Source: a bacterium (lineage in GTDB: Bacteria > Vulcanimicrobiota > Vulcanimicrobiia > Vulcanimicrobiales > Vulcanimicrobiaceae). From it: a stretch of DNA of 53,665 bases. The notes below the pieces were generated by a model. That model was not told the DNA's origin and ran no database searches. It saw nothing but the letters and a program-made list of their open reading frames with translations. Below are positions 12,367 to 43,619 of the stretch, piece after piece. Location: the NCBI GenBank assembly GCA_021832345.1, contig JAKBKY010000010.1:1-53665 (forward strand), read 5' to 3'. A program made the translations under genes and the position numbers. Position 1 is the stretch's first letter, and every line of letters starts with the position of its first letter.

Positions 12367-12795
12367 TCAGCGGTCGTTAACGACCAAGACGGGGCACGAA
12401 GCATACCGTACAACCCGATCCGAGGTGCTTCCCATCAGGAAACGCGACATCGCCGAACGGCCGCGACGACCAATCACGATGACGTCGGCACCAACGTGGG
12501 CTGCCGTTTCCACGAGTTTCTCCGCCGGGTGCTCCCCCTCAAGCACCAGGAGCTCCGCGTGAACGCCACGCTCCCGAGCCGCCTCCAACAATGGACTCGA
12601 GCGCTCTTGATAAAAGCGCCGTGCTTCTTCGACCGATCGGCGTCGTTCGGTATCCGAATCCGCATGCTCCGCACTTCGAGCGACGACCGCGACGTTCAAA
12701 CGGGAGTCAAATCGCTTGGCGATCTCCAGCGCGTAATCAAAAGCCCGCCGTGCATTTGGCGAGGCGTCCCAGGCGATAAGAATATGCGAAAACAT
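12367..12795 (-). CDS. uspA: Universal stress protein (UspA family)
   Basis: The 142-residue protein has the Usp fold: MFSHILIAWDASPNARRAF at the N-terminus and the ATP-binding signature G-x2-G-x9-GS (GRRGRSAMSRFLMGSTSDRV) followed by CPVLVV. It is an ATP-binding stress protein of unclear biochemical output. A strong GGAGGG lies 8 nt before the ATG. It starts 17 bp after the stop of the last gene of the first hydrogenase-like complex, so it is almost certainly the seventh gene of that operon and would share its upstream regulation. Confidence 0.92.
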   Translation of the reverse strand: MFSHILIAWDASPNARRAFDYALEIAKRFDSRLNVAVVARSAEHADSDTERRRSVEEARRFYQERSSPLLEAARERGVHAELLVLEGEHPAEKLVETAAHVGADVIVIGRRGRSAMSRFLMGSTSDRVVRYASCPVLVVNDR

Positions 12796-12812
12796 CTACC
12801 GATCCCTCCGAA

Positions 12813-14825
12813 TTACCACCGACGAATAGACGGATACAACAGCAACAATAGGGTGACAAAGACTAAAATGTACGAAAGGTACGCCGCGATTTTCCCCGAC
12901 TGTGTGGCTCGCACCACATTTGATATTCGCTCGAACCATCGCCCGATACTCTCCCACCACGGGAGATCGAACCATGGATTGGCCTGGCTCACATATTCGA
13001 TTCGTTTGCTTAAACTGCTCGCCGGATTGACGTGCTGATCGCGTTCGGTACGAACCACCACATCGAGCACAACGCGGGTCGGATTAGCAAATCCGCTGCC
13101 GGTATACTGGGTCCAAGGGCGATAGGCATCGCCCGATGTCCACACTTCTACGTGCGCTGGGCGCGCGCGTGGGATAAGCCGCACCAGGAGGGCAAAGCCC
13201 AACGAAAATGCCCCTACCACGAGCACAAGGCCAAGCGGCGACGTTGAGGAGAAGCTCGGGTATACCGGCGTCACAACCCATGGAACAGCGAGAATCCCGG
13301 TACTTACCGGTGCGTGGGAAAGCGTATCCAATAGCGGTGCCACACCCATGAAGAACTCCCGCGCCCCCAACCCGACACCCAGGATGAGTACGGTCCCCAT
13401 AAGCAACCCAACGCTGCGCAACACGGATCCATCCCGCTTGGCGTGCTGGGCTGCAAGCGAGCGCGCAGCTCCCAGCCATCCGATGCCGAAACACTTCACG
13501 AAGGCCACGACCGCGATCCCGGCCGCCACGCCGAGCGCGGCGCCCGCCAATGCAAACCCAACGACCGAGGCGACATGGCCCGTACGAAAGGCTTGCATGA
13601 GCCCTTCCAGCGTCATCCATTCGCCGAGAAACCCGGCGGTCGGCGGCAGCGCTACAAGCGAAGCCGAGGCGCTCAACACCGCAAACGTCGTCACCGGCAA
13701 AGCTCGCGCCAGCCCTCCAAGCCGCTCGAACGAGGTCGTTCCGCACGCATGATACACGCTACTAGCACCCAGAAAGAGCGTCATCTTGGCAAACGCATGC
13801 GCAGTAATCTGCGCGAGTGCCGCAGCCAGGCCGACACCGACGATGAGCGGCAAGCTCAACTCTCGCCCTACCAACGCCACGCCGATTCCCACGAGAATGA
13901 TTCCTGCGTTCTCCACCGATGAAAACGCCGCCAGCTCTTCGACCGTTCGCTGTGCGCTCGCCCAAGCGATGCCGCCGAGCGCACCGAGCGCACCGAGCGC
14001 AATCACGAGAAACGCGATCCACAAACCGACGCCGCCGGCCATGCCGACTTCAAAGCGCAGCAGCCCATAAAAGCCCACGTTCATCGCTCCACCAGCCATC
14101 AATGCAGCAAGGGTACGCGGTGCGCTACGATAGCCCAAGCGCAGCCATGCGTTGAAGGGCAGCATCCCAATCTTGGCACCGAATCCGATCAGCAGCGCAA
14201 CCGCAATACCCGCACGCGACCACGGAGCCAACGTCGCGCCGGCTGCCAATACCTTGGGAAGCGCGAAGCTCCCCCCAACGTGGGCAAGCACGAGGAGCCC
14301 GAGAATGATCCCCGCTCCCGCGCCATGGGTGATCAATGTCGCAAAGTATCCCGAGCGCGCTGCATCCTTGCTGCGACCGGCGTATACAATGGCCCAATAG
14401 AACGAGATTGCCAGCAACTCCCACGCAAAAATGAAGAGCAATACGTCGTTTGCGAGACAGATAAGCAAGGATGCAACGAAGATCGCACACGCCGCTGCCG
14501 CGCCTGTGCGACCGGTACCTCGTTCATCATCGATTCGGCCGCCCAACGCATACACCGAGACGATGGCAGCAACCATACTGATAATCGCTACAAAGAATCC
14601 CGCTAACGGATCCAGCCGCAAAGAGAAATGCGCTTCCAGAAGTACTGCAATAAACGTGCGACCGGCAATGAGTGCCGCCATGCTGCCGGCACATGTGCTT
14701 ACTGCGGCCAATCCTAGAAGGGCGTAGGCGAGTGCGCGTCCGATCGCACCAGGCACGAGGGTGGCAACCCCACCTGCAACGAGCGCAATCGCAAGGCCGG
14801 CGATCACCAACCCAACGTCATTCAT
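12813..14825 (-). CDS. HyfB-like antiporter subunit of Ehr complex 1
   Basis: The 670-residue polytopic protein belongs to the NuoL/MrpA/HyfB antiporter-like family. Visible proton-path residues include the Glu in FIFAWELLAISFYW, the Lys in GFGAKIGMLPFNAW and the Lys in HAFAKMTLFLGA. The usual LPxAHPxAP stretch after the first Lys is altered to LRLGYRSAP, so the conserved His is absent, while copy 2 keeps it. A C-terminal cytosolic tail and a last membrane helix (IAAYLSYILVFVTLLLLLYP) resemble HyfB/HycC. It would form the distal ion-translocating arm of the complex. It overlaps the small-subunit gene by 4 bp and is followed by uspA. Confidence 0.85.
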   Translation of the reverse strand: MNDVGLVIAGLAIALVAGGVATLVPGAIGRALAYALLGLAAVSTCAGSMAALIAGRTFIAVLLEAHFSLRLDPLAGFFVAIISMVAAIVSVYALGGRIDDERGTGRTGAAAACAIFVASLLICLANDVLLFIFAWELLAISFYWAIVYAGRSKDAARSGYFATLITHGAGAGIILGLLVLAHVGGSFALPKVLAAGATLAPWSRAGIAVALLIGFGAKIGMLPFNAWLRLGYRSAPRTLAALMAGGAMNVGFYGLLRFEVGMAGGVGLWIAFLVIALGALGALGGIAWASAQRTVEELAAFSSVENAGIILVGIGVALVGRELSLPLIVGVGLAAALAQITAHAFAKMTLFLGASSVYHACGTTSFERLGGLARALPVTTFAVLSASASLVALPPTAGFLGEWMTLEGLMQAFRTGHVASVVGFALAGAALGVAAGIAVVAFVKCFGIGWLGAARSLAAQHAKRDGSVLRSVGLLMGTVLILGVGLGAREFFMGVAPLLDTLSHAPVSTGILAVPWVVTPVYPSFSSTSPLGLVLVVGAFSLGFALLVRLIPRARPAHVEVWTSGDAYRPWTQYTGSGFANPTRVVLDVVVRTERDQHVNPASSLSKRIEYVSQANPWFDLPWWESIGRWFERISNVVRATQSGKIAAYLSYILVFVTLLLLLYPSIRRW

Positions 14826-15544
14826 CGTCCCACCTCGGAGGGCTGCAGCCGCCCGGCGGCCAGCAGTATCGCATAGAGAATCGCCAGCGGCGGCGGCGGC
14901 GCGCCCGGCAAGTAGACATCCACCGGAAGCACCGTGTCAACCGGCCCGGCCACGCAGGCTGAGTGGGCAAAAAGGCCGCCCGAACATGCAGCGGTCCCGA
15001 CCGCGACAACACGCTTGGGCAGAGGCATCGCGGCATAGACGCGTTGCAGCGGCTCCTTCATCGGCTCCGCGACCACTCCGGTGACCAGCAGGATATCGGC
15101 CCGTCGTGGACTCGCCGTTAAGAAGACGCCGAGGCGATTCGCGTCATAGTAGGGGTTAAAGATAGCCGCAAGTTCTTGTTCGCATGAAGCGTCACTGCCG
15201 GCATCGACATGACGCACATGTATAGAACGCCCGAAGCGACAACCTGTGGGAAGCAACTTCGCCGGTTGTGCGACCTCAATGTCGTTGCGCATCGCGAAAG
15301 CTTCGGGTGCCCGGCGAACGCATTCGCCGCACTGAAAACAACGCCGTTCGTCGATAGCTGCAATCGCTGGCCCAGGCGCGATCGCTCCCGTCAGGCATGC
15401 GGATGCTCCCTGGTTTTGCGCTTCCGGAGATGCTTCGAGCGCAAGGACCCTTCCGCGATAGAGCGACGGCATCGAAGGAACCTCTTGGGGGTACCGCGTC
15501 GTGAGAATTCCTCCACGCAGCCCACGCAGAATCCAGCCGTTCAT
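14822..15544 (-). CDS. NuoB/HyfI-like small subunit of Ehr complex 1, with degenerate Fe-S ligands
   Basis: The 240-residue protein fuses an N-terminal ferredoxin-like segment (ERRCFQCGECVRRAP) to a NuoB/HyfI core. In hydrogenase relatives the proximal [4Fe-4S] cluster is held by CxxC, GxCAxSGG and PGCPP. Here these read SDASC, GTAACSGG and PGAPPPP, so three of four ligands are missing at their normal positions. The ferredoxin motif also lacks its fourth Cys (C-A change). The paralogue at 43620 keeps the NuoB-type set. The gene overlaps both neighbours by 4 bp and the frame is intact, so this is an expressed but probably cluster-less subunit and not a decayed gene. Confidence 0.82.
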   Translation of the reverse strand: MNGWILRGLRGGILTTRYPQEVPSMPSLYRGRVLALEASPEAQNQGASACLTGAIAPGPAIAAIDERRCFQCGECVRRAPEAFAMRNDIEVAQPAKLLPTGCRFGRSIHVRHVDAGSDASCEQELAAIFNPYYDANRLGVFLTASPRRADILLVTGVVAEPMKEPLQRVYAAMPLPKRVVAVGTAACSGGLFAHSACVAGPVDTVLPVDVYLPGAPPPPLAILYAILLAAGRLQPSEVGR

Positions 15545-16938
15545 CGGTCAACCTCGGCCTGAAGTAGGCCAAACGAATGATCGATAAAGGAAAAATCCGT
15601 GAAGATATTGCCCGGGAGCGTCGTTTGAAAGAGCGGCCAGTTCGCATACGAAGCCGACCGCAGGCGAACGCAGGGGAGTCGCCCGCCGAGGACCCGCACC
15701 GCGTACACAAGCTCGCCCTGTGGTGACTCAACACGAGCGATTCCGCATCCGTCAACGTCAGGCACGTCTGCGCACCATGCTCCCGATGGAGCGGCATCGA
15801 GCGCATTGCGGATCAAGCGAAATGAGTCGCGGATCTCCGTGCGACGCACCAGTGCACGTGCTGCAGCATCGGTTCCTTCTTCAAGCACTTCATCACCGGT
15901 GAGCGAAGTAAAGAGCGCGCCATCGATGGCTCGGGCATCACATCGAACTCCGCTTCCGCGAGCTACCGGCCCGACGCCGCCGAATGCAACAACGTTTTTA
16001 GGGGTGAGTCTTCCGGTCCCAATCAGCCGATCGAGCAGGGACTGCGAAGCAAACAACGCCTCGACCACGCTGCGCGTCTGCGCCTCGACCTCGTCGAGCA
16101 GACGAACGCAGACCTCGGCTAGGCTAGCGAACGCATCTGCTCGTAACCCACCCGGCTTGACGACGCCCCGACCGAAGCGACTGCCGGTTGATTCCGCCAA
16201 CAAGCGATGTACGCGCTCTTTCGCGGCGAACAGTTGCATCGAACCGACGAGCAACGAGCCATCTTCGGCGAGCTTGGCGAGGGCATCGAGATGCTGGTGG
16301 ATGCGCTCGAATTCGACGAGCATGGAACGCGCGGCACGAGCGCGGAGCGGCACCTCGCTACCGGTCGCCGTCTCAACGGCCCGCGCATAGGCGCAGGCAT
16401 GCGATAGGGCCGTCGCTCCGCTGCAGAACTCCGCCACAAAGGCGCCGTCATCCAGCGTGCAGCCGACAAAACGCTCCTCGACCCCCCGTCGCTTGTAAAA
16501 CATCGACGGCGCAACGTGAACGAAGTCTTCTCCAACAGTCTGTACCACCCACTGTGCCGACTCCACGATACCCGAACGAATCGGCCCGTAAAGGACGCTC
16601 GACACTTCGGGCGAGGCCGACGCCAGTAGCGCCTCCGCATCCAGGGGAGGAATGAGTCGCGCGCCCACGTCACGATCGAAGCGCAGGCCGAAACGATCTC
16701 GTGCCTCACGTTCGGCCCAACCGGCGGCCGGCACCTTGAGCGACGGCAGGGCCGCCGCCGTGAGCGTCCCCGTTCTCCGGCTTAACTTTCGGGCTTCGTC
16801 GAGCACGTAGGTTACGGACTGAGCACCCGTTGAGCCCGTCTCGACAAAGAGCGCAATAAACCGCGCTCCCTGCGCAAGCGCCTGTGCCGTGCCATGCGCA
16901 GCATCCACCGCCGTCATATCGTTGGTGCGCTCCGTCAC
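15541..16938 (-). CDS. HyfG/NuoCD-like large subunit of Ehr complex 1, lacking [NiFe] cysteines
   Basis: The 465-residue protein fuses a NuoC-like part (AEREARDRFGLRF) to a NuoD/HycE-like part. In [NiFe] hydrogenases two CxxC pairs hold the metal site. The first region here reads AEFCSGATALSHACAYARAVE and the C-terminal one reads FIDHSFGLLQAEVDR where HycE has SLDPCYSCTDR, so no CxxC pair remains. This places it among energy-converting-hydrogenase-related (Ehr) proteins, not hydrogenases. I chose the GTG at 16938, which overlaps the upstream stop as GTGA and has GGTGG 6 nt before it. It is part of a tightly coupled six-gene operon. Confidence 0.85.
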   Translation of the reverse strand: MTERTNDMTAVDAAHGTAQALAQGARFIALFVETGSTGAQSVTYVLDEARKLSRRTGTLTAAALPSLKVPAAGWAEREARDRFGLRFDRDVGARLIPPLDAEALLASASPEVSSVLYGPIRSGIVESAQWVVQTVGEDFVHVAPSMFYKRRGVEERFVGCTLDDGAFVAEFCSGATALSHACAYARAVETATGSEVPLRARAARSMLVEFERIHQHLDALAKLAEDGSLLVGSMQLFAAKERVHRLLAESTGSRFGRGVVKPGGLRADAFASLAEVCVRLLDEVEAQTRSVVEALFASQSLLDRLIGTGRLTPKNVVAFGGVGPVARGSGVRCDARAIDGALFTSLTGDEVLEEGTDAAARALVRRTEIRDSFRLIRNALDAAPSGAWCADVPDVDGCGIARVESPQGELVYAVRVLGGRLPCVRLRSASYANWPLFQTTLPGNIFTDFSFIDHSFGLLQAEVDR

Positions 16939-18374
16939 GATGCGCCACCAAAGACCAAGTCGGCGGCACGGGTTAACAGCGTGCCGAGGGAGGCAGGCAC
17001 GAATAACCCAAGTCCCACCACGACCACCAGGCCGCACACCATCGCAAGCGATGCGATGCCGAAGCGTTCGCCATGAGGGACCGCCGGTGCATCACCAGCT
17101 CCCATCCCAGTGACTAAGCGAACCAACCCTGCGAACGAGACCACCAACAGAGCGATCATGATGACGGCCGGCACCCAACGACTCGTGCCCAATCCTCCAG
17201 CCAAGATCATCAACTCGCTACGAAAAATCCCAAACGGAGGCAAACCCGCCAGGGCCAACGCAGCGATGACGAAGAGCGTCCCGGAGATCGGCAGCACCGT
17301 CACGGCTCCCTGCACCTGATCGATCTCGCGAGTACGATAGCGATGGGCGATGCGCCCGGCACCGTAGAATGCCATCGACTTTGTCGCAGCATGGTTGATG
17401 ACATGCAAGAGTGCTCCGGCAATCGCAAGCGGAGCGCCAAAGCCCAGCCCACACGCAATTAATCCCATATGCTCGATGCTCGAATATGCCAGCATCCGTT
17501 TCGTATCTCGTTGCCGCAAGAGGAAGAACGCACCCAGAAAGAGCGAGAGCAGCCCAACAATGAAGAAGATGTGTTCGGGTAGTTGTGGCCCAACCGCTGC
17601 CCGCGTGATGGAGGTGATACGCAAGATGATATAGAGCGCATCGGAGAGCAGCGCGCCTGAGAGCATGGCGCTCGTCGTCGTCGGGCCGGCTCCATGGGCA
17701 TCCGGCAACCACGTGTGCATCGGCGCAAGGCCCATCTTCGTTCCAAAACCGACCAGCGAGAACACGAAAGCCAAGCGGACGCTGTTGGGGTCTAAGCGAT
17801 GCGCTGCCGCCAGATAGACGCTCCACGTCGGCGCATAACTCGGCCCCAGCGCATGAACGGCGGAGGCATAGAGTATGACGACGCCAAGCAGACCAAAAGC
17901 CAGGCCGCAGGACGCGATCAAGATATACTTCCACGCCGCCTCCAACGCAGCGTCGGTGCCCTGCATACGAACGAGCAGAGCGGCGATCAGCGTCGTTCCC
18001 TCGAGGGCGACCCACGCCCCGGGCAGATTGATCAGCATCGGAATAATGACTTCAGCACAGGCAAAGGCGTTGGTTAACGCCAGAAACTCTCGTTGATGAC
18101 GTTCGTCATGGCCGGTGGATTCAGCGCGAACGTACCAGTACGTATAGAGCCCGACCGTGCCGTAGACGATGCCGACCGGCAGCAGAAACAATGCGGAGAG
18201 GGCATCGGTTCTACCCTGCCCATGGGCGGTCGCCCATGCGACCAGCAGAATGCAGATTGCAGTGGCTACGCCTGCGATAGCGGTGAGTACTCGACCGACT
18301 CTCGATGGAAGCAGCAACGAGGCAACACCGGCGCTCGCCGGAATAGCGACCATGGCGAAAGGCAGGATGCTCAC
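16935..18374 (-). CDS. HyfF-like antiporter subunit of Ehr complex 1
   Basis: The 479-residue polytopic protein is a second NuoL/M/N-type subunit. The signature GFGTKMGLAPMHTWLPDAHGAGPTTTSAMLSG is intact, with the central Lys and the AH motif, and further channel residues appear in EGTTLIAALLV (Glu) and NHAATKSMAFYGAGRI (Lys). It would translocate H+ or Na+ next to the HyfB-like subunit. The gene overlaps the HyfE-like and large-subunit genes by 4 bp on each side. Copy 2 has a matching gene at 40599 with the same motif order. Confidence 0.88.
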   Translation of the reverse strand: MSILPFAMVAIPASAGVASLLLPSRVGRVLTAIAGVATAICILLVAWATAHGQGRTDALSALFLLPVGIVYGTVGLYTYWYVRAESTGHDERHQREFLALTNAFACAEVIIPMLINLPGAWVALEGTTLIAALLVRMQGTDAALEAAWKYILIASCGLAFGLLGVVILYASAVHALGPSYAPTWSVYLAAAHRLDPNSVRLAFVFSLVGFGTKMGLAPMHTWLPDAHGAGPTTTSAMLSGALLSDALYIILRITSITRAAVGPQLPEHIFFIVGLLSLFLGAFFLLRQRDTKRMLAYSSIEHMGLIACGLGFGAPLAIAGALLHVINHAATKSMAFYGAGRIAHRYRTREIDQVQGAVTVLPISGTLFVIAALALAGLPPFGIFRSELMILAGGLGTSRWVPAVIMIALLVVSFAGLVRLVTGMGAGDAPAVPHGERFGIASLAMVCGLVVVVGLGLFVPASLGTLLTRAADLVFGGAS

Positions 18375-19039
18375 CCGATAAGCCTCTCGAAGGGATGAAT
18401 CGCGGCTGAGTTCTGCCCGTCAACCAACACCCGCACGAGAACCCCGAAGACCACCACCGCGACGAGCACATCAACCAGCAACAGCATGCCGATCACGAAC
18501 GGAAGCCCAGGTGCAAGCGTTACCGTCCCAAAGAACAATCCGTTTTCTATCGTAAGAAACGCGACAACCTGAGCGAGCGCATTCGGCCGTAAGATCGCCA
18601 GCAGAAAGCCGATGAAGATGATCGCCAAGGCCGTGGCAAGATCGGCCCTGGGCAAAAATACTCCAGCCGTCTCTGTAAGGCGCGCTGCCACGAGGATCGC
18701 CAACCCCGTAACGCCGGCAGCAAGCATCAATGAAAGCGTCACGTTGATTCGCACCGGGATTTCGACCCGCTTTGACACGCCGCGCACGAGCGAACTCATA
18801 TATCCAGGCAGGAAGACCACTTTCAGCAGGAACGTTACGCCCGCAAGCACCCCGAGGTCCCATGCGTGCGTAGTCACTGCCACCACGGCGGCAATGCCTG
18901 CAACAAGAAAGGATTGCACGGCATACAATCGGATCAGTTCGCCGATCACTACCGATCGGAAGCACGCTAGCTGCGTCAAGATGAGGAACATCGCAACCGT
19001 TCCGGAGATAGCCGCAGGCAGGCCAATGGTATGCTGCAT
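18371..19039 (-). CDS. HyfE-like membrane subunit of Ehr complex 1
   Basis: The 222-residue protein has about seven hydrophobic helices and matches HyfE (a NuoK-like extended subunit): FLILTQLACFRSVVIGELIRLYAVQSFLVAG at the N-terminus and LRPNALAQVVAFLTIENGLFFGTVTLAPGLP near the C-terminus. The buried glutamate in FLTIENG corresponds to NuoK-type proton-path residues. It overlaps the HyfC-like stop as TAATG and the HyfF-like start as ATGA, which implies translational coupling within the operon. Confidence 0.85.
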   Translation of the reverse strand: MQHTIGLPAAISGTVAMFLILTQLACFRSVVIGELIRLYAVQSFLVAGIAAVVAVTTHAWDLGVLAGVTFLLKVVFLPGYMSSLVRGVSKRVEIPVRINVTLSLMLAAGVTGLAILVAARLTETAGVFLPRADLATALAIIFIGFLLAILRPNALAQVVAFLTIENGLFFGTVTLAPGLPFVIGMLLLVDVLVAVVVFGVLVRVLVDGQNSAAIHPFERLIG

Positions 19040-19989
19040 TATCCTACTCCCACAGCATAGGCGAATACGGCAAGGACTGCGACGAGCAACCCGGTCGCGA
19101 TGAACTCCGGTATTTTATACAAGCGCAACTTGGCAAAACTCGTTTCGATAGCGACAACCACAGTTCCGACCAATAACATCTTCGCAAACAGCAGGGCTGC
19201 CGCAAGTGCCACGGATGCGGCCGAGCCGGTGCTTGATAATCCCTCTGGGATCAATAACACATTGCAAAAAATCGTATAGAGCACAAATTGCTTCATGGCT
19301 GTGCCCCATACGAAGAGGCCCAAAGCCGGCCCCGAGTGCTCAAACGTCCTGGCATCGTCGATCATGCCGAACTCAATTGTGGCCGACGAGCTTTCAATGG
19401 GAATGCGCCCCGTATCAACGAGGAGCATCATGAAGAAAGCCGCAGTTGCCAGCACGTGAGCCGGCCGTATAACATCGGCAAATGAACCACGCAACGCGGA
19501 GTTCATGGCATACGGGAGATCCGTCCCGGTGACAAAGGCGACGGAGAAAAACACAAAAATAAGCGTCGGCTCGACCAGAATCCCAATCATGGTAGCGCGC
19601 GACGCACCGATATGCGCGTACTGCGAGCCGGAATCAATCGCAGCAAGAGCGGTGACAAAGCCGCCAAGCGCCAGGACAAACGCCCCGCCGAGAATATCGC
19701 CGAAGGTTGCCCCTGGAAGTGGATAGGTGGTCAACACCGGAATGAGGGTCGCAACACCGGCATACGCGCCACAGGCGACGTATGGAGCGACGCGAAATAT
19801 CCACGAGGCCGGTTCCGGGATGAGCGACTGCTTCCCCAGGAACTTCCAGATGTCGCGATAGACTTGAAAGATCGACGGACCGCGCTTACCGGCGATCATC
19901 GCTTCCGCACGCGCGATCGAACCGGTCAACAAGGGTGCAAGAAAAACCACGACGGCGACTTGGAGACCTTGCAGAACGATCGATGGCAA
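19039..19989 (-). CDS. HyfC/NuoH-like membrane subunit of Ehr complex 1 (first gene)
   Basis: The 316-residue, eight-helix protein corresponds to HyfC/HycD/NuoH, which links the redox or soluble arm to the ion pumps. Motifs seen are AEAMIAGKRGPSIFQVYRDIWKF, DTGRIPIESSSATIEFGM and the C-terminal ETSFAKLRLYKIPEF. The start is a TTG, the only start codon in the open frame before a TAA. It has AGGAG 7 nt upstream. That AGGAG lies in the 3' arm of a perfect 10-bp hairpin (see the leader), so initiation should be controlled. The length equals that of the paralogue at 38990. Confidence 0.85.
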   Translation of the reverse strand: MPSIVLQGLQVAVVVFLAPLLTGSIARAEAMIAGKRGPSIFQVYRDIWKFLGKQSLIPEPASWIFRVAPYVACGAYAGVATLIPVLTTYPLPGATFGDILGGAFVLALGGFVTALAAIDSGSQYAHIGASRATMIGILVEPTLIFVFFSVAFVTGTDLPYAMNSALRGSFADVIRPAHVLATAAFFMMLLVDTGRIPIESSSATIEFGMIDDARTFEHSGPALGLFVWGTAMKQFVLYTIFCNVLLIPEGLSSTGSAASVALAAALLFAKMLLVGTVVVAIETSFAKLRLYKIPEFIATGLLVAVLAVFAYAVGVG

Positions 19990-20095
19990 ATGAAAACTCC
20001 TAACGGCAACGTGAGCGCGGTCCGCGTGTCGTTAGGAGTCATTGACCCGGCGGGCTCTTTACGGACTCATTACCGTCGGCGAACTCCTCCGCCGC
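19990..20095 (-). promoter_or_regulatory. Degenerate fluoride-riboswitch-like leader with SD-sequestering hairpin
   Basis: Right after the coiled-coil gene's TAG, the minus strand carries GGCG/CGCC (20090-20093 with 20078-20081) flanking GGAGTT (20082-20087), which can pair with GACTCC (20035-20040) inside CAATGACTCCTAAC. This is the P2, P1 and 3' conserved part of the fluoride aptamer. The 5' core reads GGCGGAGG where the consensus is GGCGATGG, so it may not bind fluoride. ACTCCTAACG pairs perfectly with CGTTAGGAGT (20030-20039 with 19996-20005), which hides the AGGAG of the TTG-started HyfC-like gene. TTTT follows, so attenuation is also possible. Confidence 0.5.
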
Positions 20096-20098
20096 ATG

Positions 20099-20527
20099 CT
20101 ATTGCGGCCGTTTAGCCGTGGATTCGGCTTCTCCTCCCGAAGATTCGATGTCGTCGCCAACGGGGTCGTACCACACCTCCTCGACCGGTTCGTGAAGGGC
20201 CAAGCGCGCCTTGAGTTCATGAATGCGGCGGATCAGCAATCGCCGTTGCGTTGCCGCCGCTTCGCTTTGCGCGACCATGCCGACATTGCGTAAATGTTCG
20301 GTATTGAGGTCTCGCATGAAACGCGCGAGGTCAAAGTGCTCGGAAGAATACTGCCGCTGGAGATCGTAGAGTAGCTCGCCACGCTTGCGCGAAAGCTCTG
20401 TTTCCTGGGCCAAACGGCCTTCAAGTTCGGTGATTCCGGCTTCGAGCTGTGGGCAACGCGGACACGCGCCGCCCTGCGGCACAGCATCATGCGTCTGTCG
20501 ATCGCGCAGAAACCAGGGACGCCACAT
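20099..20527 (-). CDS. Small coiled-coil protein with CxxC
   Basis: This 142-residue soluble protein starts MWRPWFLRDR, has a CPRC pair at residues 22-25 and then long charged helices (ITELEGRLAQETELSRKRGELLYDLQ; QSEAAATQRRLLIRRIHELKARL) likely to form coiled coils, and ends in an acidic tail. I recognise no family. It is the first gene after a fluoride-riboswitch-like leader, and the hydrogenase-like operon follows on the same strand after a second leader of 109 bp. It could be an accessory or assembly factor of that complex. GGAG upstream is about 15 nt from the ATG, which is long. Confidence 0.65.
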   Translation of the reverse strand: MWRPWFLRDRQTHDAVPQGGACPRCPQLEAGITELEGRLAQETELSRKRGELLYDLQRQYSSEHFDLARFMRDLNTEHLRNVGMVAQSEAAATQRRLLIRRIHELKARLALHEPVEEVWYDPVGDDIESSGGEAESTAKRPQ

Positions 20528-20612
20528 GGTTATGGTCGATGTTCTCCATCAAGTCCAGATAGGAGCCATCAGCCGCTACGGCAGACTCGGCGAGCCCCAT
20601 CGCCGTTCGCGC
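20528..20612 (-). promoter_or_regulatory. Fluoride (crcB-motif) riboswitch before coiled-coil gene
   Basis: The minus strand reads GGCGATGGGGCTCGCC (20589-20604), a P3 hairpin GCCG-TAG-CGGC (20572-20582) and CTGATGGCTCCTATC, matching the crcB-motif consensus GGCGAUGGnnnnCGCC ... GGCUGAUGnCnCCUaC. P2 is GGCG/CGCC and P1 is GGGGCT (20593-20598) with GGCTCC (20562-20567). In the alternative fold CTCCTATC (20558-20565) pairs with GATGGAG (20544-20550), hiding the only GGAG near the start codon. That predicts expression when fluoride is bound. Confidence 0.85.
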
Positions 20613-20666
20613 CTATATTCCCCAAATACGGCGCTCCTCCTGCCTTTCCAGAGCAATCCGTAGGTC

Positions 20667-21470
20667 ATGCGATCCTTCGACCGCGACGAGGCCGAGTGCC
20701 GACATCGAAGAGTTGGTCGCCTCTATCTCGCCAAGAACCGCGCTTCCATGCAGACGGGTACGAAGGACGCCTCGAGGATGGAGTTCCCCCGCAAACTGCC
20801 GAAACATCGACTGATGGTTCCTGACCATGCGATCATCGAAAGTTTGTTCGCGGAGTTGCGTGACGCCGAGCGAGTCGCCGGAGAGCGCCTCGAAGCGGGA
20901 TGCGCCGACGATGCGAAAGCGATCGAGACGTTCTTCCGGCAACCGCTCGAAAGCGCGCGCCGCGAGGCAATCGATGCCATCTCCGGAATGGGAAAGAATC
21001 TTGAGGCCGATCTCGCGGCCCATCTGCGCCGGGAAGCATTCATACGCATCGCGAGCAGCTTCGCCGAGCAAATTCGTGCGAATGCCGGGATGCGGGCGCG
21101 CGCGCGCTTCAAACGATACGCGCAGGAGCTCGCGAATGCTGAAGCGCGAATCGCCGAAGCGATCGCGGCGTCACGCACGACACGGGCTAAACGCCTGTTC
21201 CCGCGCATGTTCACGATCCACTACCTGGATTTCGACGATCTCCATTTCCCGGACGCTCCGAGCGACGACTCGGAGGAAGAAATCGAGGCCTGGATCGAGC
21301 GCTTGCGACGATGCGTCCGCGACCTCCTGACGGCGCAGGTCGATTCCGAACGCGAGCATGTGCTCGCATGCGGAATCGAACGCCTTGGAATCGTCAGCGC
21401 GCGCATGCATCTCGCCCTGCATGCACATCAGCGCGCGGCTGGGCTACGAGCAACGAAGATGCGGTCGTAG
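20667..21470 (+). CDS. Hypothetical helical protein
   Basis: The 267-residue frame has normal protein composition after about residue 37: alternating charged helices (IESLFAELRDAERVAGERLEAG; RREAFIRIASSFAEQIRANAG) and an acidic segment (DDLHFPDAPSDDSEEEIEAWIERL). I recognise no family, signal peptide or membrane segment. The start is uncertain. ATGs at 20667, 20748 and 20778 are all possible and none has a strong ribosome site. It lies between two fluoride-riboswitch operons, divergent from one, and its 3' end overlaps the convergent MutS-like gene by 43 bp. A part in the same stress response is possible but unproven. Confidence 0.55.
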   Translation: MRSFDRDEAECRHRRVGRLYLAKNRASMQTGTKDASRMEFPRKLPKHRLMVPDHAIIESLFAELRDAERVAGERLEAGCADDAKAIETFFRQPLESARREAIDAISGMGKNLEADLAAHLRREAFIRIASSFAEQIRANAGMRARARFKRYAQELANAEARIAEAIAASRTTRAKRLFPRMFTIHYLDFDDLHFPDAPSDDSEEEIEAWIERLRRCVRDLLTAQVDSEREHVLACGIERLGIVSARMHLALHAHQRAAGLRATKMRS

Positions 21471-22942
21471 ATATCTTCCCCGTAACTGGTCGCCAACGGC
21501 TCGCCTTCCAACAGTTTGAATCTCCGGTCGGAATCTCCGGCGTGCCGCTGAGCACGCAAGAACAGCATCGGTACGACGTGCTGTTCCCACAACCCGGACG
21601 CAAACTCGTACAGATGGGTCACGAAGACAACCCGCGCTCCGCACTCCACGAGCCCGGTCACGATCTGGCGAGCTATTTCCGAGCCTTCTCGATCGTTAGT
21701 AGCGGCAAACGACTCGTTAAAAAGGAGCAGCGAGTGCGGCTTGACGTTCTCGACCAGGTCGCTCATTCTACGAAGTTCTTCGTCGAACTTTCCGCTCTCC
21801 ATCGTCACGTCTTCTTCGCGCTTGTAGTGCGTGAAGAGCCCATCACACAGGCTGGCGCTGTACGATTCGGCCGGTACGAACATCCCACTCTGCATCATCA
21901 ACTGCGATAATCCGACGCTTCGCAGGAACGTTGACTTTCCGCCTTGGTTGGCACCGGTCACGACGATCAGCGCCTTACCGTCGGCGCACAGGTCATTGCC
22001 GCTCACCCTTTCCTCGGTTACGAGCGCCAAGGACGCATCATAGAGCCCCACGCAATGCCGGATCCCGGCGCTTGCCTCCATCGGAGCGGGGAAACACACG
22101 GGTTCACCCTTGCCCGTAAGCCGTTCGTGCAAGTTCATGCAGCCGACGTAAAACGCAGTCTCCGCTCGCAGGCTGATAAAAAAAGCCAAGATGTGGTCGG
22201 CAGACTGGGCAAGCGCAGCGGCGACGAGATTGACTCCGCGGTCCGCGATCTCCGAGAGGGCTCGAGCCCCGCTTTCGTCTCGTGGATGCACATGGTACGT
22301 ATAACCGGCCGGCTCGGGATCGAAGATCCGCTCGAGCCAACTTCGTCTATGATCGGGGGCATCACGCAAAACGTACCCGGCACCGCGGTTCCCTTCTCCG
22401 AGGCCGGCGCTCATGAGGATTCCGCCACGGAACTCCACGCGCCGCAAGTGATCGGCAACACCGGCTAAATAATCATCGGGAAGCTCCGCCACGAGCATCG
22501 AGAAGAGCCTGGTGAAGCCTTCAGATTCGAAGCCGGCCGCGTACCGGTCCGCGATCGCCCGCAGCCTCCGCAACGCGCCCAAGAACATTTTCAGCACGTC
22601 GGTCGATCGGCGCAGGATCGAACTCGGATGCCGGCTCCTTAGACCCCAAAAATTCTTCCGTTCGTCTTCGATCGCTTGCGTCGCGATATCGTAGATATCC
22701 CTGACCACGGACGAGTTAGCCAAGCAGTCTCTCAGCACGTCCTGCCGGTAGCGTACGGCATCCACGTCGCGGACGCCGACGATGAGCCTCGTTTTTGCGG
22801 CCTCGAACACGTGGGGATCATCATTCGCCATGGCCGTGAAGAGGGCGTTCAAGCCAAGGTCTTCGACGAGGTTATCCGCGTTCGGCGGCAATGCCTCTTC
22901 AAGGTCGGCATCACGATCGCGATGCAATAGGAACGCCTTCAT
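21428..22942 (-). CDS. MutS-like ATPase lacking the mismatch-recognition domain (second copy)
   Basis: The 504-residue protein has a helical lever/clamp-like N-terminal part and a C-terminal MutS ATPase domain with Walker A TGANQGGKSTF (about residues 329-339), SGKFDEELRRMSDLV and FVTHLYEFA. There is no N-terminal mismatch-binding domain or FxE motif, so it is not a canonical mismatch sensor. Walker B reads LLLFNESF with Asn where MutS has the Mg-binding Asp. The neighbour paralogue shows the same change. It overlaps that gene by 4 bp. It would use ATP to change conformation on an unknown nucleic acid or protein partner. Confidence 0.85.
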   Translation of the reverse strand: MKAFLLHRDRDADLEEALPPNADNLVEDLGLNALFTAMANDDPHVFEAAKTRLIVGVRDVDAVRYRQDVLRDCLANSSVVRDIYDIATQAIEDERKNFWGLRSRHPSSILRRSTDVLKMFLGALRRLRAIADRYAAGFESEGFTRLFSMLVAELPDDYLAGVADHLRRVEFRGGILMSAGLGEGNRGAGYVLRDAPDHRRSWLERIFDPEPAGYTYHVHPRDESGARALSEIADRGVNLVAAALAQSADHILAFFISLRAETAFYVGCMNLHERLTGKGEPVCFPAPMEASAGIRHCVGLYDASLALVTEERVSGNDLCADGKALIVVTGANQGGKSTFLRSVGLSQLMMQSGMFVPAESYSASLCDGLFTHYKREEDVTMESGKFDEELRRMSDLVENVKPHSLLLFNESFAATNDREGSEIARQIVTGLVECGARVVFVTHLYEFASGLWEQHVVPMLFLRAQRHAGDSDRRFKLLEGEPLATSYGEDIYDRIFVARSPAAR

Positions 22943-24486
22943 CCGGGGCCGGCTCCGCTCAGCCGCTCCTTCAAGCGCCGGTATGTGAGCCCGTATTTTT
23001 CCGCAAGTGACACGGCATAGGCAAGGCCGTCTGCTGGTTTTCGCTCGAGCTTATAGGTTCGTACATCGGGATTCCGTGGATCGACGAGGCTGACCATGCT
23101 CACCGTCTTCTCGCTCAAAGAAGCCAGCTCGTCAATGAACGTTACGAACACGCACAATCCGTCGAGCCGCAGTATCTGCGCCATGATCTTCCGCCCCAGC
23201 ACTCCGGCATCGCGTGCAGTCGTGGAGGTAAATATCTCGTTTATGATGATGATGCTTGCCGAAGTGGCTCGCGCGAGAATGTCGTGGAGCCGGATGAGGT
23301 CGTCCTCGAGCTTGCCTCGAAGTGATCCGGGATCTTCCTGTCTCTCAAAATGTGAAAACATCGCGTCGAAGAGGAACGTGCGCGCTCTGCGTCCGGCGAC
23401 CGGAAATCCTAGGGACGCCAAGTACTGCATCTGTCCGAACGTGCGGGCAAACGTCGTCTTCCCGCCTTGGTTGGGGCCCGACACCACGAAGACACGCTCC
23501 GGTCCGCTCAAGTGGAAATCGTTGCAAACGACCGGCGTTCCCGTAGCGATGAGCTTTTGCGCGAGAGCGAAATCGAAGCAGTCCTCGCCGATGACGTCCT
23601 TGGTTTCGCTGGATACCTGCGGATAGCACGTCTGCAGCCCGGCGCGCTCGAAAATCTGTACATACTCCGCATAGGCGAGGTAGAGCTGTGCTTCGCGATC
23701 GAACTGATGAATCGTACTATCGATGAACGTCGCATGCAATCGGTAGAAACGATCGAGCTCGGAGAACACGCCGGGGTAGAGCAGCGCAACGAACTCCAAG
23801 ACCTTGGCTTCGACGTGATTCATCCCGATCCGCTCTGGGAACGCGACGAGATACTCTTTCGCCGAGCCTTGCTTGAATCGCGAGAACGTGTCCTGTATCG
23901 ACGTAACGTAATCGCTTTCGCCGGAATAGTTTCGTACCGTGATGCTACTACCGTTGACGAGAACCAAATACTCCACGTTTGCAAGGTTCGACAATAGTTC
24001 TTTGACGTCATCATGGAGCGTCTTGAACGATTCGGACTGCAGATACGCTGCAAGATACGCTCCGAACGCCGAAAGACCGGTCGACTCCACATCGTCACCG
24101 GCTAAATCATCCGTGAGGCGTATTACCGCCTCGCAGTAGATGCGCGCGCCGTCCACGAAGTGACGTTCCTTCTCGTGCACGTAATAGAGCTTCTCTACCG
24201 TATGAAGTTCCGCGCGCACAGTACGCATGCTCCGTGCAAACATTGCAATTGCTTCAGCGATCCGTTCCTTTCGAACGTCGCGCATCACCTCCTGGCGGTA
24301 GCCGACGGCTTCGGGACCGTTCAGCGGCGCGCGAAGGAACGGCTTTAGATCGTATTCCTCTCTTCCTGAGACGATCGCATCGAGAACCTGGTCGAGGTTC
24401 AAATCGATAAAAAACGGCGGAGATTCCAGCGTATCGATCGGCGGCCGATCACCGGCGTGGCGATACAATATACTATGAAACTTCAT
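22939..24486 (-). CDS. MutS-like ATPase lacking the mismatch-recognition domain (first copy)
   Basis: From the ATG at 24486 the protein has 515 residues. The C-terminal ATPase shows Walker A VVSGPNQGGKTTFAR (about 334-348), SLRGKLEDDLIRLHDIL and a Walker B of SIIIINEIFTSTTARD with Asn for Asp. The N-terminal 320 residues are helical (MutS domain III-like) and include PPFFIDLNLDQVLDAI and PVVCNDFHL. A longer frame upstream lies inside the GTPase gene and is rejected. The gene is sandwiched between the GTPase (7 bp gap) and its paralogue (4 bp overlap), so the three proteins probably act together. Confidence 0.85.
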   Translation of the reverse strand: MKFHSILYRHAGDRPPIDTLESPPFFIDLNLDQVLDAIVSGREEYDLKPFLRAPLNGPEAVGYRQEVMRDVRKERIAEAIAMFARSMRTVRAELHTVEKLYYVHEKERHFVDGARIYCEAVIRLTDDLAGDDVESTGLSAFGAYLAAYLQSESFKTLHDDVKELLSNLANVEYLVLVNGSSITVRNYSGESDYVTSIQDTFSRFKQGSAKEYLVAFPERIGMNHVEAKVLEFVALLYPGVFSELDRFYRLHATFIDSTIHQFDREAQLYLAYAEYVQIFERAGLQTCYPQVSSETKDVIGEDCFDFALAQKLIATGTPVVCNDFHLSGPERVFVVSGPNQGGKTTFARTFGQMQYLASLGFPVAGRRARTFLFDAMFSHFERQEDPGSLRGKLEDDLIRLHDILARATSASIIIINEIFTSTTARDAGVLGRKIMAQILRLDGLCVFVTFIDELASLSEKTVSMVSLVDPRNPDVRTYKLERKPADGLAYAVSLAEKYGLTYRRLKERLSGAGPG

Positions 24487-24493
24487 AGCGCGA

Positions 24494-26173
24494 TCAGCAT
24501 GAGTGCGCCGGCACATCGAACTCTGCGCTGAGAGCTTCCAGGCGACGCGCAGTTTGGTTGAGAAGCTCCACCTCAAGATCGGGGCTTTCGCAGTCGCCTT
24601 GCGCGACCCGAGAAAAGGCCGCCAGCACGGATGCATGAGCGGCATCCAGGCCCTCTTTGAGCACTCTTCGCGATGCCGCTACCCAAGCGTCGCTTTCGGT
24701 ACGCACGGCATAATGAAGGCGCCCACGCGCAGCGTCGAGTTCGCTTGCGAGCATACGCTCATAATAGCTGCGTCGCAGGCGTGTGCGCAAAACGGATGGT
24801 AAGGCCGCGGTGAGCGCCCCCTGGATCAACTCCAGGCCGGTCGTCGGTTCATCGGCAAGCACACGGGAGTGGCGCAGGATGCTCAAAGCCGCAGGCTCCT
24901 CGTCAACCGACGGCATGGCAATGCCGAACGCTTGGCAACCGGCGGCAAACATCGCCCTTTCCAACTCTGCGAGCTTGACGCCATAGCTGACGGCAAATGT
25001 GCCCAGCCCGCGCTCAAGTTCGCTTGAGACCTCCTGACGCCACGAACGGCCTGTTTCAAGGACGTAGCTACGCGCGCGCTCGTAGCCGTGTTCTGCGGAC
25101 GGATCCTCGGCGGCAGCCTTCGCTACGGCAGACGTTTTCGCGAGGGTGGCACGATAACGCTCATCCAGCCGATCCAATATCCCAGTCCGCATCGATCGCG
25201 CGTCATCGGCAACCAAGAGGCCAAGTGCGCGCAGGCGTTCATCGAGATCATGGGCAACCTGCTCGACGGCTTGCCGACGGCGCTCCCGTTCCTGAGCCGG
25301 CAGCGACGCCGCCACTTGTCGCATGGCAAGCAACGCACGCAAACGGTCGATAATGACGCGTACGCGCCGCTGACCCGACTCTTCCCGGACTCTAGACCCG
25401 TGCAGCGCAAGGAAAGTGTCCAGCGCACTGCCAAACGCTTGGAAGTTCTCGTCGACTTCCCCGTTCTGCCGTGCGGCACACGCCGCAGCGGCGGATAGCG
25501 GCGCGATGTCGGGAGCCTTACCAAGCTCTTCTGCCAGAGCCGACTGCGTAAACGCCATCAGTTCCGGCAGGGCCGATCCCGCGAGATCCATTTTGTTGAA
25601 TACCACGAAGAGTCGACTGGCCGAGCCCACCACTTCATGTACGAACTCAAGTTCGTCACGCCCGACGGGAGGTTCCGGGCCAACCACGAGAATCGCAACA
25701 TCGGCTTGGGCGAGCGCTTGGAGCGCACTGGCAGAGTTATGATCGAAGGTCGATCCAATCCCCGGCGTATCTACAAGCGCAACGTTCCGCAGCCTCGCCG
25801 TAGGAAGCCAAATATCGACTTGTGCAATCTGTCGGCAATTTTTCGGGTTTTCTGATTCACTGACATACCGACCCACATCATCGAGTGGAATGCCCTGCTC
25901 GCTACCATCAAACATGCGAATGCGCACCCGGATGTCGCCGTAGTGTACTGCGGTAACGACACCGGTGACCGGCAACACGCCAACCGGTAAGACATCGCGT
26001 TCGACGAGCGCATTGATGAACGTGCTCTTGCCGCGCTTAAAACGCCCTACGACGAGCACGTTCGTTTCGCGATGGTCGAACTGCTCCCGCAAGACCCGAA
26101 CCCGCAAAGCGAGCTCCGGCTCTCCAACAGATATGGCAAGCTCTTCGAGCTGCCCCAGCCACGCGACATCCAT
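24494..26173 (-). CDS. Dynamin-family GTPase
   Basis: The 559-residue protein carries all four GTPase motifs: G1 GRFKRGKSTFINAL, a G2-region threonine in GVLPVTGVVTAV, G3 LVDTPGIGSTFDH and G4 FNKMD. A long helical region follows, as in bacterial dynamin-like proteins, which remodel or protect membranes. I see no clear membrane-spanning segment. The ATG at 26173 has AGGGA 9 nt upstream, and that SD can be hidden by the riboswitch leader. A start further upstream would translate the aptamer itself. It is the first gene of a three-gene operon with two MutS-like ATPases. Confidence 0.87.
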   Translation of the reverse strand: MDVAWLGQLEELAISVGEPELALRVRVLREQFDHRETNVLVVGRFKRGKSTFINALVERDVLPVGVLPVTGVVTAVHYGDIRVRIRMFDGSEQGIPLDDVGRYVSESENPKNCRQIAQVDIWLPTARLRNVALVDTPGIGSTFDHNSASALQALAQADVAILVVGPEPPVGRDELEFVHEVVGSASRLFVVFNKMDLAGSALPELMAFTQSALAEELGKAPDIAPLSAAAACAARQNGEVDENFQAFGSALDTFLALHGSRVREESGQRRVRVIIDRLRALLAMRQVAASLPAQERERRRQAVEQVAHDLDERLRALGLLVADDARSMRTGILDRLDERYRATLAKTSAVAKAAAEDPSAEHGYERARSYVLETGRSWRQEVSSELERGLGTFAVSYGVKLAELERAMFAAGCQAFGIAMPSVDEEPAALSILRHSRVLADEPTTGLELIQGALTAALPSVLRTRLRRSYYERMLASELDAARGRLHYAVRTESDAWVAASRRVLKEGLDAAHASVLAAFSRVAQGDCESPDLEVELLNQTARRLEALSAEFDVPAHSC

Positions 26174-26256
26174 GCAAGACGGTCCCTGCGATATACACAC
26201 AGGGGCCATCAGCCGCAAGGCGGCGGTCGGCGGCGAGCCCCATCGCCGTTCTTGCA
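26174..26256 (-). promoter_or_regulatory. Fluoride (crcB-motif) riboswitch before dynamin/MutS-like operon
   Basis: The minus strand reads GGCGATGGGGCTCGCC (26232-26247), a P3 hairpin GCCGC-CTT-GCGGC and CTGATGGCCCCTGTG, matching the fluoride aptamer. P1 is GGGGCT (26236-26241) with GGCCCC (26202-26207). The alternative hairpin CCCTGTG (26198-26204) with CGCAGGG (26184-26190) covers AGGGA, the SD of the GTPase gene. This suggests translational activation by fluoride. Confidence 0.87.
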
Positions 26257-38875: not shown

Positions 38876-38891
38876 GTGGGCACGTAGACGC

Positions 38892-38989
38892 TTGAGCAGC
38901 GATGGAGCCCGCTATAGGCCGCGCCGGCATAATGGCTCCTACTCGGCACATTTTGCTGGTAGGAGCATTTCTATGTCACAGGACCATAC
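38892..38989 (+). promoter_or_regulatory. Fluoride (crcB-motif) riboswitch before Ehr operon 2
   Basis: The leader reads AGCGATGGAGCCCGCT (38898-38913), P3 GCCG-CGC-CGGC (38918-38928) and ATAATGGCTCCTAC (38929-38942), matching the fluoride aptamer. P2 is AGCG/CGCT and P1 is GGAGCC (38904-38909) with GGCTCC (38934-38939). A mutually exclusive 8-bp hairpin GCTCCTAC/GTAGGAGC (38935-38942 with 38959-38966) hides an AGGAG ribosome site. Ligand-bound P1 would release it, so this looks like a translational ON switch. Confidence 0.86.
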
Positions 38990-39011
38990 ATGGCCCAATC
39001 TGCGGCGCTGA
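38973..39011 (+). CDS. Possible 12-residue leader peptide overlapping the HyfC-like start
   Basis: The ATG at 38973 lies 7 nt after the AGGAG that the riboswitch can hide. The frame reads MSQDHTWPNLRR and stops at 39011, 19 bp inside the HyfC-like gene in another frame. The HyfC-like ATG at 38990 has its own weaker CAGGA. Translation of this short frame could open the region and couple to the main gene. It may also be incidental. Confidence 0.35.
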   Translation: MSQDHTWPNLRR

Positions 39012-39940
39012 ATCTCTGGCAACTCGCGTTCGTCCTTGGGCTTTCTCCTCTGTTCGCCGGCATTGCGCAGAAATGCAAAGAGCTGGTTGCGTCCAAGCGC
39101 GGCCCGAGTATCTTCCAACCCTATCGCGACCTGCGCAAGCTCTTCGCCAAAGACGAGGTGGTCTCCGAGCGAAGCTCCTGGATCCTTCGCTTCACTCCGT
39201 ATGTCGTGTTCGTCGTCCCGCTCGTCGTCACGCTGCTAATACCGGTCCTGACGGACTTTCCACTGTTCTTCGCCTTTGTCGGAGACATGCTGGCGGCGGG
39301 ATTCATCCTGGCAATGTCGGGATTCTTCTTCACCCTCGCGGCAATCGACGGTGGCAACCCCTACGGACCGATGGGCGCGAGCCGAACGCGCATGGTCGGC
39401 TTCCTGGTCGAACCAGTCATCATCGTCGTCCTTTTCACCGTGTCGTTCGTGGCGGATTCCACGATACCGTACATCGTGCAACAGCACTGGGTACATCCGC
39501 TCGCAAACTTCTTCTCCGCATCGCACGTCCTATTGCTGATCGCGTTCTTCATGGTGATCCTCGCCGAAACCGGACGGATTCCCGTCGATAATCCCAGCGG
39601 CCATTTCGAGCTGGCGATGGTCGACGAATCGAAGGCGCTCGAGTTCTCCGGGCGATCGCTCGCGCTCCTGAAGTGGGGTGGCTATATGAAGTTCACCGTC
39701 CTGGCAATCATTTTCCTCAACGTGCTGACCGCGCCGTGGGGCCTAGCTTCAACCGGCACGATCCCGGCAATGCTGCTTGCAACGGTGCTGATCTTCGTCA
39801 AGGTTCTCGTGCTCGTGCTGCTCGTCGTCATCGTGGAATCATCGTTTGCAAAGCTGCGGCTGTTTCGCATCCAAGAATTCGTGGGTGCCGCATTCATCGT
39901 TTCGGTTACGGCAATGGTAATGGAGTTGCTCGGTCTATGA
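38990..39940 (+). CDS. HyfC/NuoH-like membrane subunit of Ehr complex 2 (first gene)
   Basis: The 316-residue, eight-helix protein matches HyfC/NuoH: CKELVASKRGPSIFQPYRDLRKLF, ETGRIPVDNPSGHFELAMVDES, EFSGRSLALLKWGGYMK and VESSFAKLRLFRIQEF. The acidic loop residues are closer to classical HyfC than in copy 1. The ATG at 38990 has CAGGA 6 nt upstream. It is the first of six genes in the same order as copy 1 (C-E-F-G-I-B), each joined to the next by 4-bp overlaps or a 4-bp gap. Confidence 0.9.
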   Translation: MAQSAALNLWQLAFVLGLSPLFAGIAQKCKELVASKRGPSIFQPYRDLRKLFAKDEVVSERSSWILRFTPYVVFVVPLVVTLLIPVLTDFPLFFAFVGDMLAAGFILAMSGFFFTLAAIDGGNPYGPMGASRTRMVGFLVEPVIIVVLFTVSFVADSTIPYIVQQHWVHPLANFFSASHVLLLIAFFMVILAETGRIPVDNPSGHFELAMVDESKALEFSGRSLALLKWGGYMKFTVLAIIFLNVLTAPWGLASTGTIPAMLLATVLIFVKVLVLVLLVVIVESSFAKLRLFRIQEFVGAAFIVSVTAMVMELLGL

Positions 39941-43615: not shown

Positions 43616-43619
43616 GGCT

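Follow-up and report, generated by a model that had tools for sequence, protein, structure and literature searches.

What does a bacterial locus that carries several fluoride riboswitches, and no exporter gene beside them, do for its cell? The window (the whole stretch of 53,665 nt that was analyzed) had been read in a first-pass annotation as a fluoride regulon with several elements and no exporter gene at the locus, and this reading holds beyond the locus itself: no CrcB was found in the window's own genome, the single CLC of this genome has no riboswitch nearby, and its two Na+/H+ exchangers lie outside the locus. By association the regulon is specific to fluoride, and its core has no exporter, which points to coping with fluoride rather than exporting it. 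We consider it probable, judging from sequence, that the locus is a fluoride-tolerance island under five riboswitches, in which translational ON switches would control Mrp-like antiporter complexes (Ehr1 and Ehr2) and a remodelling machine made of a dynamin-like protein and two MutS-like ATPases.

All five fluoride aptamers (crcB motif, RF01734) in the window fall within 19 kb and account for five of the six fluoride elements known in the 2.34-Mb genome (Table 1). The two clear aptamers that the first-pass annotation had placed at 26174-26256 and 20528-20612 correspond to A and B, both above the Rfam gathering threshold of 34 bits, and its element at 39 kb is aptamer E. Its total of four elements was one short, as aptamer D on the plus strand had been overlooked. 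A search with RF01734, the check proposed there, thus recovers A and B above the cut-off and D and E below it (29.6 and 23 bits), but gives no match for C. The window was also searched with two covariance models from which its own sequence was excluded, R1 from 20 variant elements of relatives and R2 from 32 canonical elements. R1 ranked aptamer C first and the four canonical elements next, with everything else at or below 9.2 bits; R2 placed the four canonical elements on top and the variant C fifth at 12.1 bits, the best unrelated match scoring 10.3 bits. The pair between positions 6 and 38 is A-U in aptamers A, B, D and E, and G-C in C. A TATGAT sequence stands immediately 5' of aptamer A. 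The gene calls of the first-pass annotation were borne out by Pfam.

Table 1. Aptamers, expression platform and genes of the locus (window positions; scores in bits or as E-values).
Feature	Position	Strand	Evidence and remarks
Universal stress protein (uspA)	12367-12795	-	End of Ehr1 operon; Usp 5.4e-32
Ehr1 HyfB/MrpD-like antiporter	12813-14825	-	Proton_antipo_M 1.8e-38; NCBIfam HyfB-like
Ehr1 NuoB/HyfI-like	14822-15544	-	N-terminal ferredoxin domain; 3 of 4 proximal-cluster Cys lost
Ehr1 NuoD/HyfG-like	15541-16920	-	Without Ni ligands; Pfam, alignments
Ehr1 antiporter-like (HyfF/NuoN-like)	16935-18374	-	Proton_antipo_M 1.7e-50
Ehr1 HyfE-like	18371-19039	-	Operon position; no Pfam match
Ehr1 NuoH/HyfC-like	19039-19989	-	Pfam NADHdh 1.8e-28
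Platform of aptamer C	19996-20039	-	ACUCCUAACG (20030-20039) pairs over 10 bp with CGUUAGGAGU (19996-20005), the Shine-Dalgarno of the nuoH-like gene
Aptamer C	20031-20097	-	Variant G6-C38, extra J2/3 hairpin; R1 45.0 bits, E 8e-11
P142, coiled-coil protein	20099-20527	-	Behind aptamer B; no Pfam or NCBIfam family
Aptamer B	20553-20613	-	RF01734 37.3 bits; R2 51.8 bits; leader of P142
Aptamer D	20765-20830	+	Divergent; RF01734 29.6 bits, E 2.7e-4 (permissive scan); R2 32.4 bits, E 1.8e-8
P267, helical-bundle protein	20814-21470	+	Start uncertain, in-frame ORF from 20667; behind aptamer D
MutS-like ATPase b (MutSb)	21428-22942	-	MutS_V 5.7e-23; Walker B NE
MutS-like ATPase a (MutSa)	22939-24486	-	Only MutS_V in Pfam; Walker B NE
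Bacterial dynamin-like GTPase	24494-26173	-	Pfam Dynamin_N 3.8e-22 (scanned from codon 8 of the listed start)
Aptamer A	26193-26256	-	Canonical A6-U38; RF01734 42.9 bits; R2 59.0 bits; leader of dynamin-MutSa-MutSb
Aptamer E	38889-38948	+	RF01734 23 bits (own-genome scan); R2 34.3 bits, E 4.7e-9; leader of Ehr2
Ehr2 NuoH-like	38990-39940	+	NADHdh 9.5e-32
Ehr2 remaining subunits	39945-46471	+	Antiporter, NuoCD (41990-43615), NuoB (43602-44339), HyfB-like; true starts of two ORFs later

Aptamer C had been taken for a degenerate candidate at 19990-20095; a real aptamer is present there, but it belongs to a coherent variant subclass rather than being degenerate. Elements upstream of orthologous nuoH-like genes in other genera keep the frame of the canonical aptamer but carry G at position 6 and C at position 38 in place of A and U, and most have an additional hairpin that separates P2 from P3. 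Of the collected elements, 42 have A-U at positions 6 and 38 and 21, counting that of the window, have G-C; there is also one case each of A-C, U-U and a misreading. The G6-C38 form is present in all 20 relatives used to train R1 and in all 12 further variant elements from a phylum-wide search, which precede a nuoH-like gene, DUF190 with CrcB, or a Na+/H+ antiporter; in some variant elements U7 is also changed to A. In the Bacillus cereus aptamer, the A5-U35 pair, which our own mapping equates with 6-38, is a long-range reverse Watson-Crick pair (PMC8004769), so that the change from A6-U38 to G6-C38 amounts to a paired substitution of a tertiary contact. Chance similarity is ruled out for aptamer C by its R1 score (45.0 bits against 9.2 bits for the best non-riboswitch match), and decay by the same G6-C38 form at the same place in other genera together with the perfect 10-bp platform. 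Perfect 6/38 covariation everywhere is likewise ruled out, because G-C and A-C forms also occur in Proteobacteria and Bacillota in loci of like kind; the covariation is strong in this phylum and not absolute. In Proteobacteria, the G6-C38 form was seen at L092 9224, L122 14708 and L107 12014, those of L092 and L122 without the extra hairpin. The subclass may have a different fluoride threshold, which could switch the genes on in sequence.

The expression platforms follow a common scheme, in which a downstream stretch bearing the Shine-Dalgarno sequence is complementary to the pseudoknot's 3' CUCCU strand. An anti-Shine-Dalgarno stem of at least seven pairs was found in 41 of 63 aptamers; 200 shuffles, which permuted mononucleotides and not dinucleotides, gave 11.9 on average and 23 at most. 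Within the window this pairing spans 10 bp at C, 9 at E and 7 at A, and forms a bulged helix at B; at these four sites the predicted apo folds bury the Shine-Dalgarno. At aptamer A a CCCUGUG/CGCAGGG helix spans the AGGGA Shine-Dalgarno region, and at aptamer E a long hairpin lies over it. Four of the five switches would thus be ON-type translational switches, fluoride binding being attributed to them from their family. Aptamer D, which extends over the probable start of the P267 gene, shows weak pairing and no stable predicted fold, and no Shine-Dalgarno platform was recognised; it is probably decayed or altered.

The position of aptamer C appears intra-operonic, as it starts right after the stop codon of P142, whose own leader holds aptamer B. 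The Ehr1 operon is therefore apparently reached through two serial switches on one mRNA, P142 and Ehr1 appearing, from this arrangement, to share a transcript. The same spacing from P142 through the element to nuoH recurs in genera G005 and G012. Compared with the crcB motif as described by RF01734, the window elements share the pseudoknot loop, P2, P3, the CUCC strand and ON-type platforms, two of them scoring over the cut-off and two under it; they differ in the G6-C38 pair and J2/3 hairpin of C that Rfam misses, in the presence of five elements in 19 kb, in the intra-operonic serial switch and in being mostly translational. Behind the Ehr2 Shine-Dalgarno, a 12-codon mini-ORF at 38973-39011 (MSQDHTWPNLRR and a stop codon) overlaps the start of nuoH2, and relative G020 has MSRNRTWPKLRR and a stop codon at the same place, an arrangement that suggests translational coupling.

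Ehr1 was expected to be a six-gene, hydrogenase-like operon ending in uspA. Pfam confirmed the gene calls, but the operon holds seven genes, six complex-I-like ones and uspA, and the complexes are not hydrogenases. The subunit at 18371-19039, which we take to be HyfE-like, is so named from its context; Ehr2 is paralogous to Ehr1, and its stretch 43976-46471 was identified by BLAST to relatives. The nickel-ligand cysteines are missing, with both CxxC pairs gone, in all 22 NuoD-like proteins covering the site among the riboswitch-neighbourhood complexes across phyla. In the Ehr1 large subunit, AEFCSGATALSH stands in place of the RVCGIC region and the C-terminus ends in EVDR, and the absent cysteine ligands rule out a group 4 hydrogenase. 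The Ehr1 small subunit retains one of four cysteines in its proximal-cluster motifs (SDASCEQE, TAAC and PGAPP); three or four of the four are lost in all seven genera, the relatives keeping none or one. Ion-path residues in transmembrane helices, Glu and Lys, are conserved in both Ehr1 antiporter subunits, as judged by alignment to the Mbh antiporter subunit 6cfw_H. With no nickel ligands and most proximal FeS ligands lost, Ehr1 is most readily interpreted as an ion antiporter of Mrp type. The N-terminal four-cysteine ferredoxin-type (4Fe-4S) domain is intact in both complexes, so that Ehr1 may not be wholly redox-silent, and the NuoB of Ehr2 keeps all four proximal cysteines, which makes an electron-driven pump possible for Ehr2. 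The complexes thus resemble Hyf/FHL-2, Ehr (energy-converting hydrogenase-related) and Mrp systems in the HyfB-C-E-F-G-I subunit set and in the Glu/Lys path of the antiporter subunits, and differ from hydrogenases and complex I in lacking a nickel site and, in Ehr1, most proximal FeS ligands.

Aptamer A leads an operon with a different content, a dynamin-like gene followed by two genes for MutS-like ATPases. By Pfam, MutSa and MutSb contain domain V alone and lack the mismatch-recognition domain I, and the NCBIfam models of the MutS family score them at 46.8-75.6 bits against cut-offs of at least 400. In their Walker B motifs Asn-Glu replaces Asp-Glu, as in 66 of 66 MutSa and 75 of 76 MutSb proteins in which the motif was readable, at 80 loci from many phyla, those of the best 80 of more than 500 MutSb relatives. 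A DNA repair role for the pair is disfavoured by these three features, and the sequences suggest that the two ATPases form a dedicated pair, set apart from mismatch repair. The Asp-to-Asn change may also serve as a marker that separates MutSa and MutSb from MutS1 and MutS2. The best NCBIfam match of MutSb is KamC, an aminomutase reactivase ATPase (NF052383), at 78.7 bits with a cut-off of 300. KamB and KamC occur paired. The window proteins are like such reactivases in being paired MutS-like ATPases of ~505 aa without a mismatch domain, and unlike them in falling far under the KamC cut-off and in being linked to fluoride switches; no aminomutase genes were identified near the window pair.

Two further genes of the locus belong to no known family. 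P142, judged a coiled coil by composition, is kept in seven genera, and in several of them its gene immediately precedes Ehr1 or a MutS gene. P267, which has no Pfam or NCBIfam family, is predicted to fold into three long helices (pLDDT 85); its fold matches are weak, the best informative one, the bacterial dynamin IniA, being not significant (E 0.1). Its homologue in G029 is likewise behind a fluoride aptamer. A 189-aa protein whose gene immediately precedes MutSa in G005 is a distant relative of P267.

Genera of the same family share these modules, but their order and orientation vary; many of the modules follow an aptamer of their own, with up to eight elements per cluster. MutSb was found in 15 of 99 same-family genomes, representing 11 of 38 genera. 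Canonical elements are present in all 15 of these genomes and in 21 of the 84 others (Fisher 2.6e-8), and two or more elements in 13 of 15 compared with 3 of 84 (p 9e-12). A scan of named genomes gave more than 500 MutSb relatives, from Thermoanaerobacter to Rhodopila and Methanocella. Among the best 80 of these loci, 79 also carry MutSa and 61, in many phyla, have fluoride elements within 10 kb (at least three elements in 29); the first genes behind the elements include MutSa (at least 39), dynamin (12), Na+/H+ antiporter (12), nuoH-like (11), enolase (11; named from sequence and not by profile) and CrcB (5). The neighbours in relatives include DUF190 with CrcB, NUDIX hydrolase, HAD, metallophosphatase, MFS and cyclopropane-fatty-acid synthase genes. 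The acid/halide stress setting proposed in the first-pass annotation fits this picture: genes for CrcB with DUF190, Na+/H+ antiporters, enolase, NUDIX and HAD proteins and phosphoesterases follow or adjoin these switches in relatives. These associations suggest, at the level of sequence, that enolase, CrcB and Na+/H+ antiporters belong with the MutS pair and the nickel-less complex to a single regulon. In Lucifera butyrica (L091 5879-6134), three tandem fluoride aptamers precede a complex-I-like operon.

The same comparisons bear on other explanations of the island. It could be a resistance cassette spread by horizontal transfer, with genes that serve against acid stress in general and with fluoride control incidental, and the patchy distribution in the family as well as the shuffled gene order among its genera would suit such a history; yet aptamers are kept in every MutS-carrying genome of the family, and the neighbours include enolase and CrcB, typical members of fluoride regulons, so that we regard this as quite unlikely. 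A ligand other than fluoride might be invoked for aptamer C to account for the coordinated core change from A6-U38 to G6-C38 and the U7-to-A change in some elements. This appears very unlikely, given that variant elements precede CrcB with DUF190, Na+/H+ antiporters and Ehr1, all of them fluoride-regulon genes, and that the G-C and A-C versions in other phyla sit in the same kind of loci.

The function of the complexes is likewise open to a second reading, in which they are true redox enzymes, formate hydrogenlyase-like or complex-I-like, that fluoride induces so as to redirect energy metabolism under a block of enolase. The best PDB matches of the Ehr subunits are indeed FHL and Mbh subunits, the Ehr2 proximal cluster is intact, and such genes are named formate hydrogenlyase in published lists (PMC2864571, PMC11139923). 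Against this, CxxC nickel ligands are missing at both ends in every riboswitch-linked large subunit examined, the loss of proximal cysteines from Ehr1 extends to all seven genera, and no formate dehydrogenase subunit is present among the window genes profiled; we therefore think a redox role unlikely.

In the antiporter and remodelling reading that we prefer, HF would enter the cell and raise intracellular F-, and Mg-F- would lock the pseudoknot of each aptamer, as expected for members of this family. The locked pseudoknot would hold the CUCCU strand and free the Shine-Dalgarno (ON), in line with the mutually exclusive pairing seen in the sequence. From their subunit anatomy, Ehr1 and Ehr2 would swap cations for H+ as Mrp-like antiporters and so oppose HF-driven acidification, a role in keeping with the stress that reviews lay on Na+/H+ antiporters under fluoride (PMC11139923). 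The dynamin and MutSa/MutSb may form an NTP-driven machine that acts on targets which fluoride has damaged or trapped, remodelling or reactivating them rather than repairing mismatches, as exclusion and weak similarity would indicate. More broadly, MutSa/MutSb with dynamin and complex-I-derived antiporters without redox function, under several or serial riboswitches that include the G6-C38 subclass, might constitute a form of fluoride tolerance that does not rely on export, a generalization that we offer tentatively.

Parts of this picture have precedents, as the first-pass annotation had cautioned. Genes named mutS and genes for ion transport and formate hydrogenlyase are already mentioned in the 2010 paper on the crcB motif (PMC2864571), and formate hydrogenlyase, antiporters, phosphatases, HAD and enolase appear in the portion of the Baker 2012 list relayed by a 2024 review (PMC11139923); the single links to mutS, formate hydrogenlyase, antiporters and HAD are therefore not new. 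The gene categories are the same here, whereas those lists, as far as relayed, give single links, and the present locus combines a fixed mutS pair with dynamin and a "formate hydrogenlyase" without nickel ligands in one multi-switch island. What appears to be new is the architecture of a cluster with several switches, some of them apparently in series on a single mRNA, together with the aptamer variant that carries G-C and the absence of ligands for redox chemistry. In the open-access literature searched, we found no account of fluoride switches that are clustered or act in series, of a fixed MutSa-MutSb pair carrying Asn-Glu at Walker B, of complexes that lack these Ni and FeS ligands or of an aptamer with G6-C38, nor of what the mutS and "formate hydrogenlyase" genes do in a fluoride-stressed cell, links known since 2010. 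The 2010 paper was the one relevant find there on fluoride riboswitches with mutS or dynamin, and nothing useful was found on Ehr or KamB/KamC. The suggestion that the clustering is undescribed thus stands as regards the open-access literature searched, but the arrangement is not unique, since it recurs in other genera and phyla; by Rfam alone, Formimonas, a genome of Xanthobacteraceae and a further metagenome bin were confirmed to hold multi-element clusters. The same loci are present in cultivable Thermoanaerobacterium, Moorella, Pollutimonas and Rhodopila, which makes the roles of the genes directly testable, and the aptamer variant provides a natural experiment on the fluoride-binding core.

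Two observations concern genes outside the five switches. No aptamer was seen at the cyclopropane-fatty-acid synthase gene of the window (49513-50796), and its homologue in G012 follows a fluoride aptamer (L042:5167). The sixth fluoride element of the genome (contig C3:137506; L053 6997-8339) stands before a NUDIX hydrolase gene, with a divergent HAD-family phosphatase gene.
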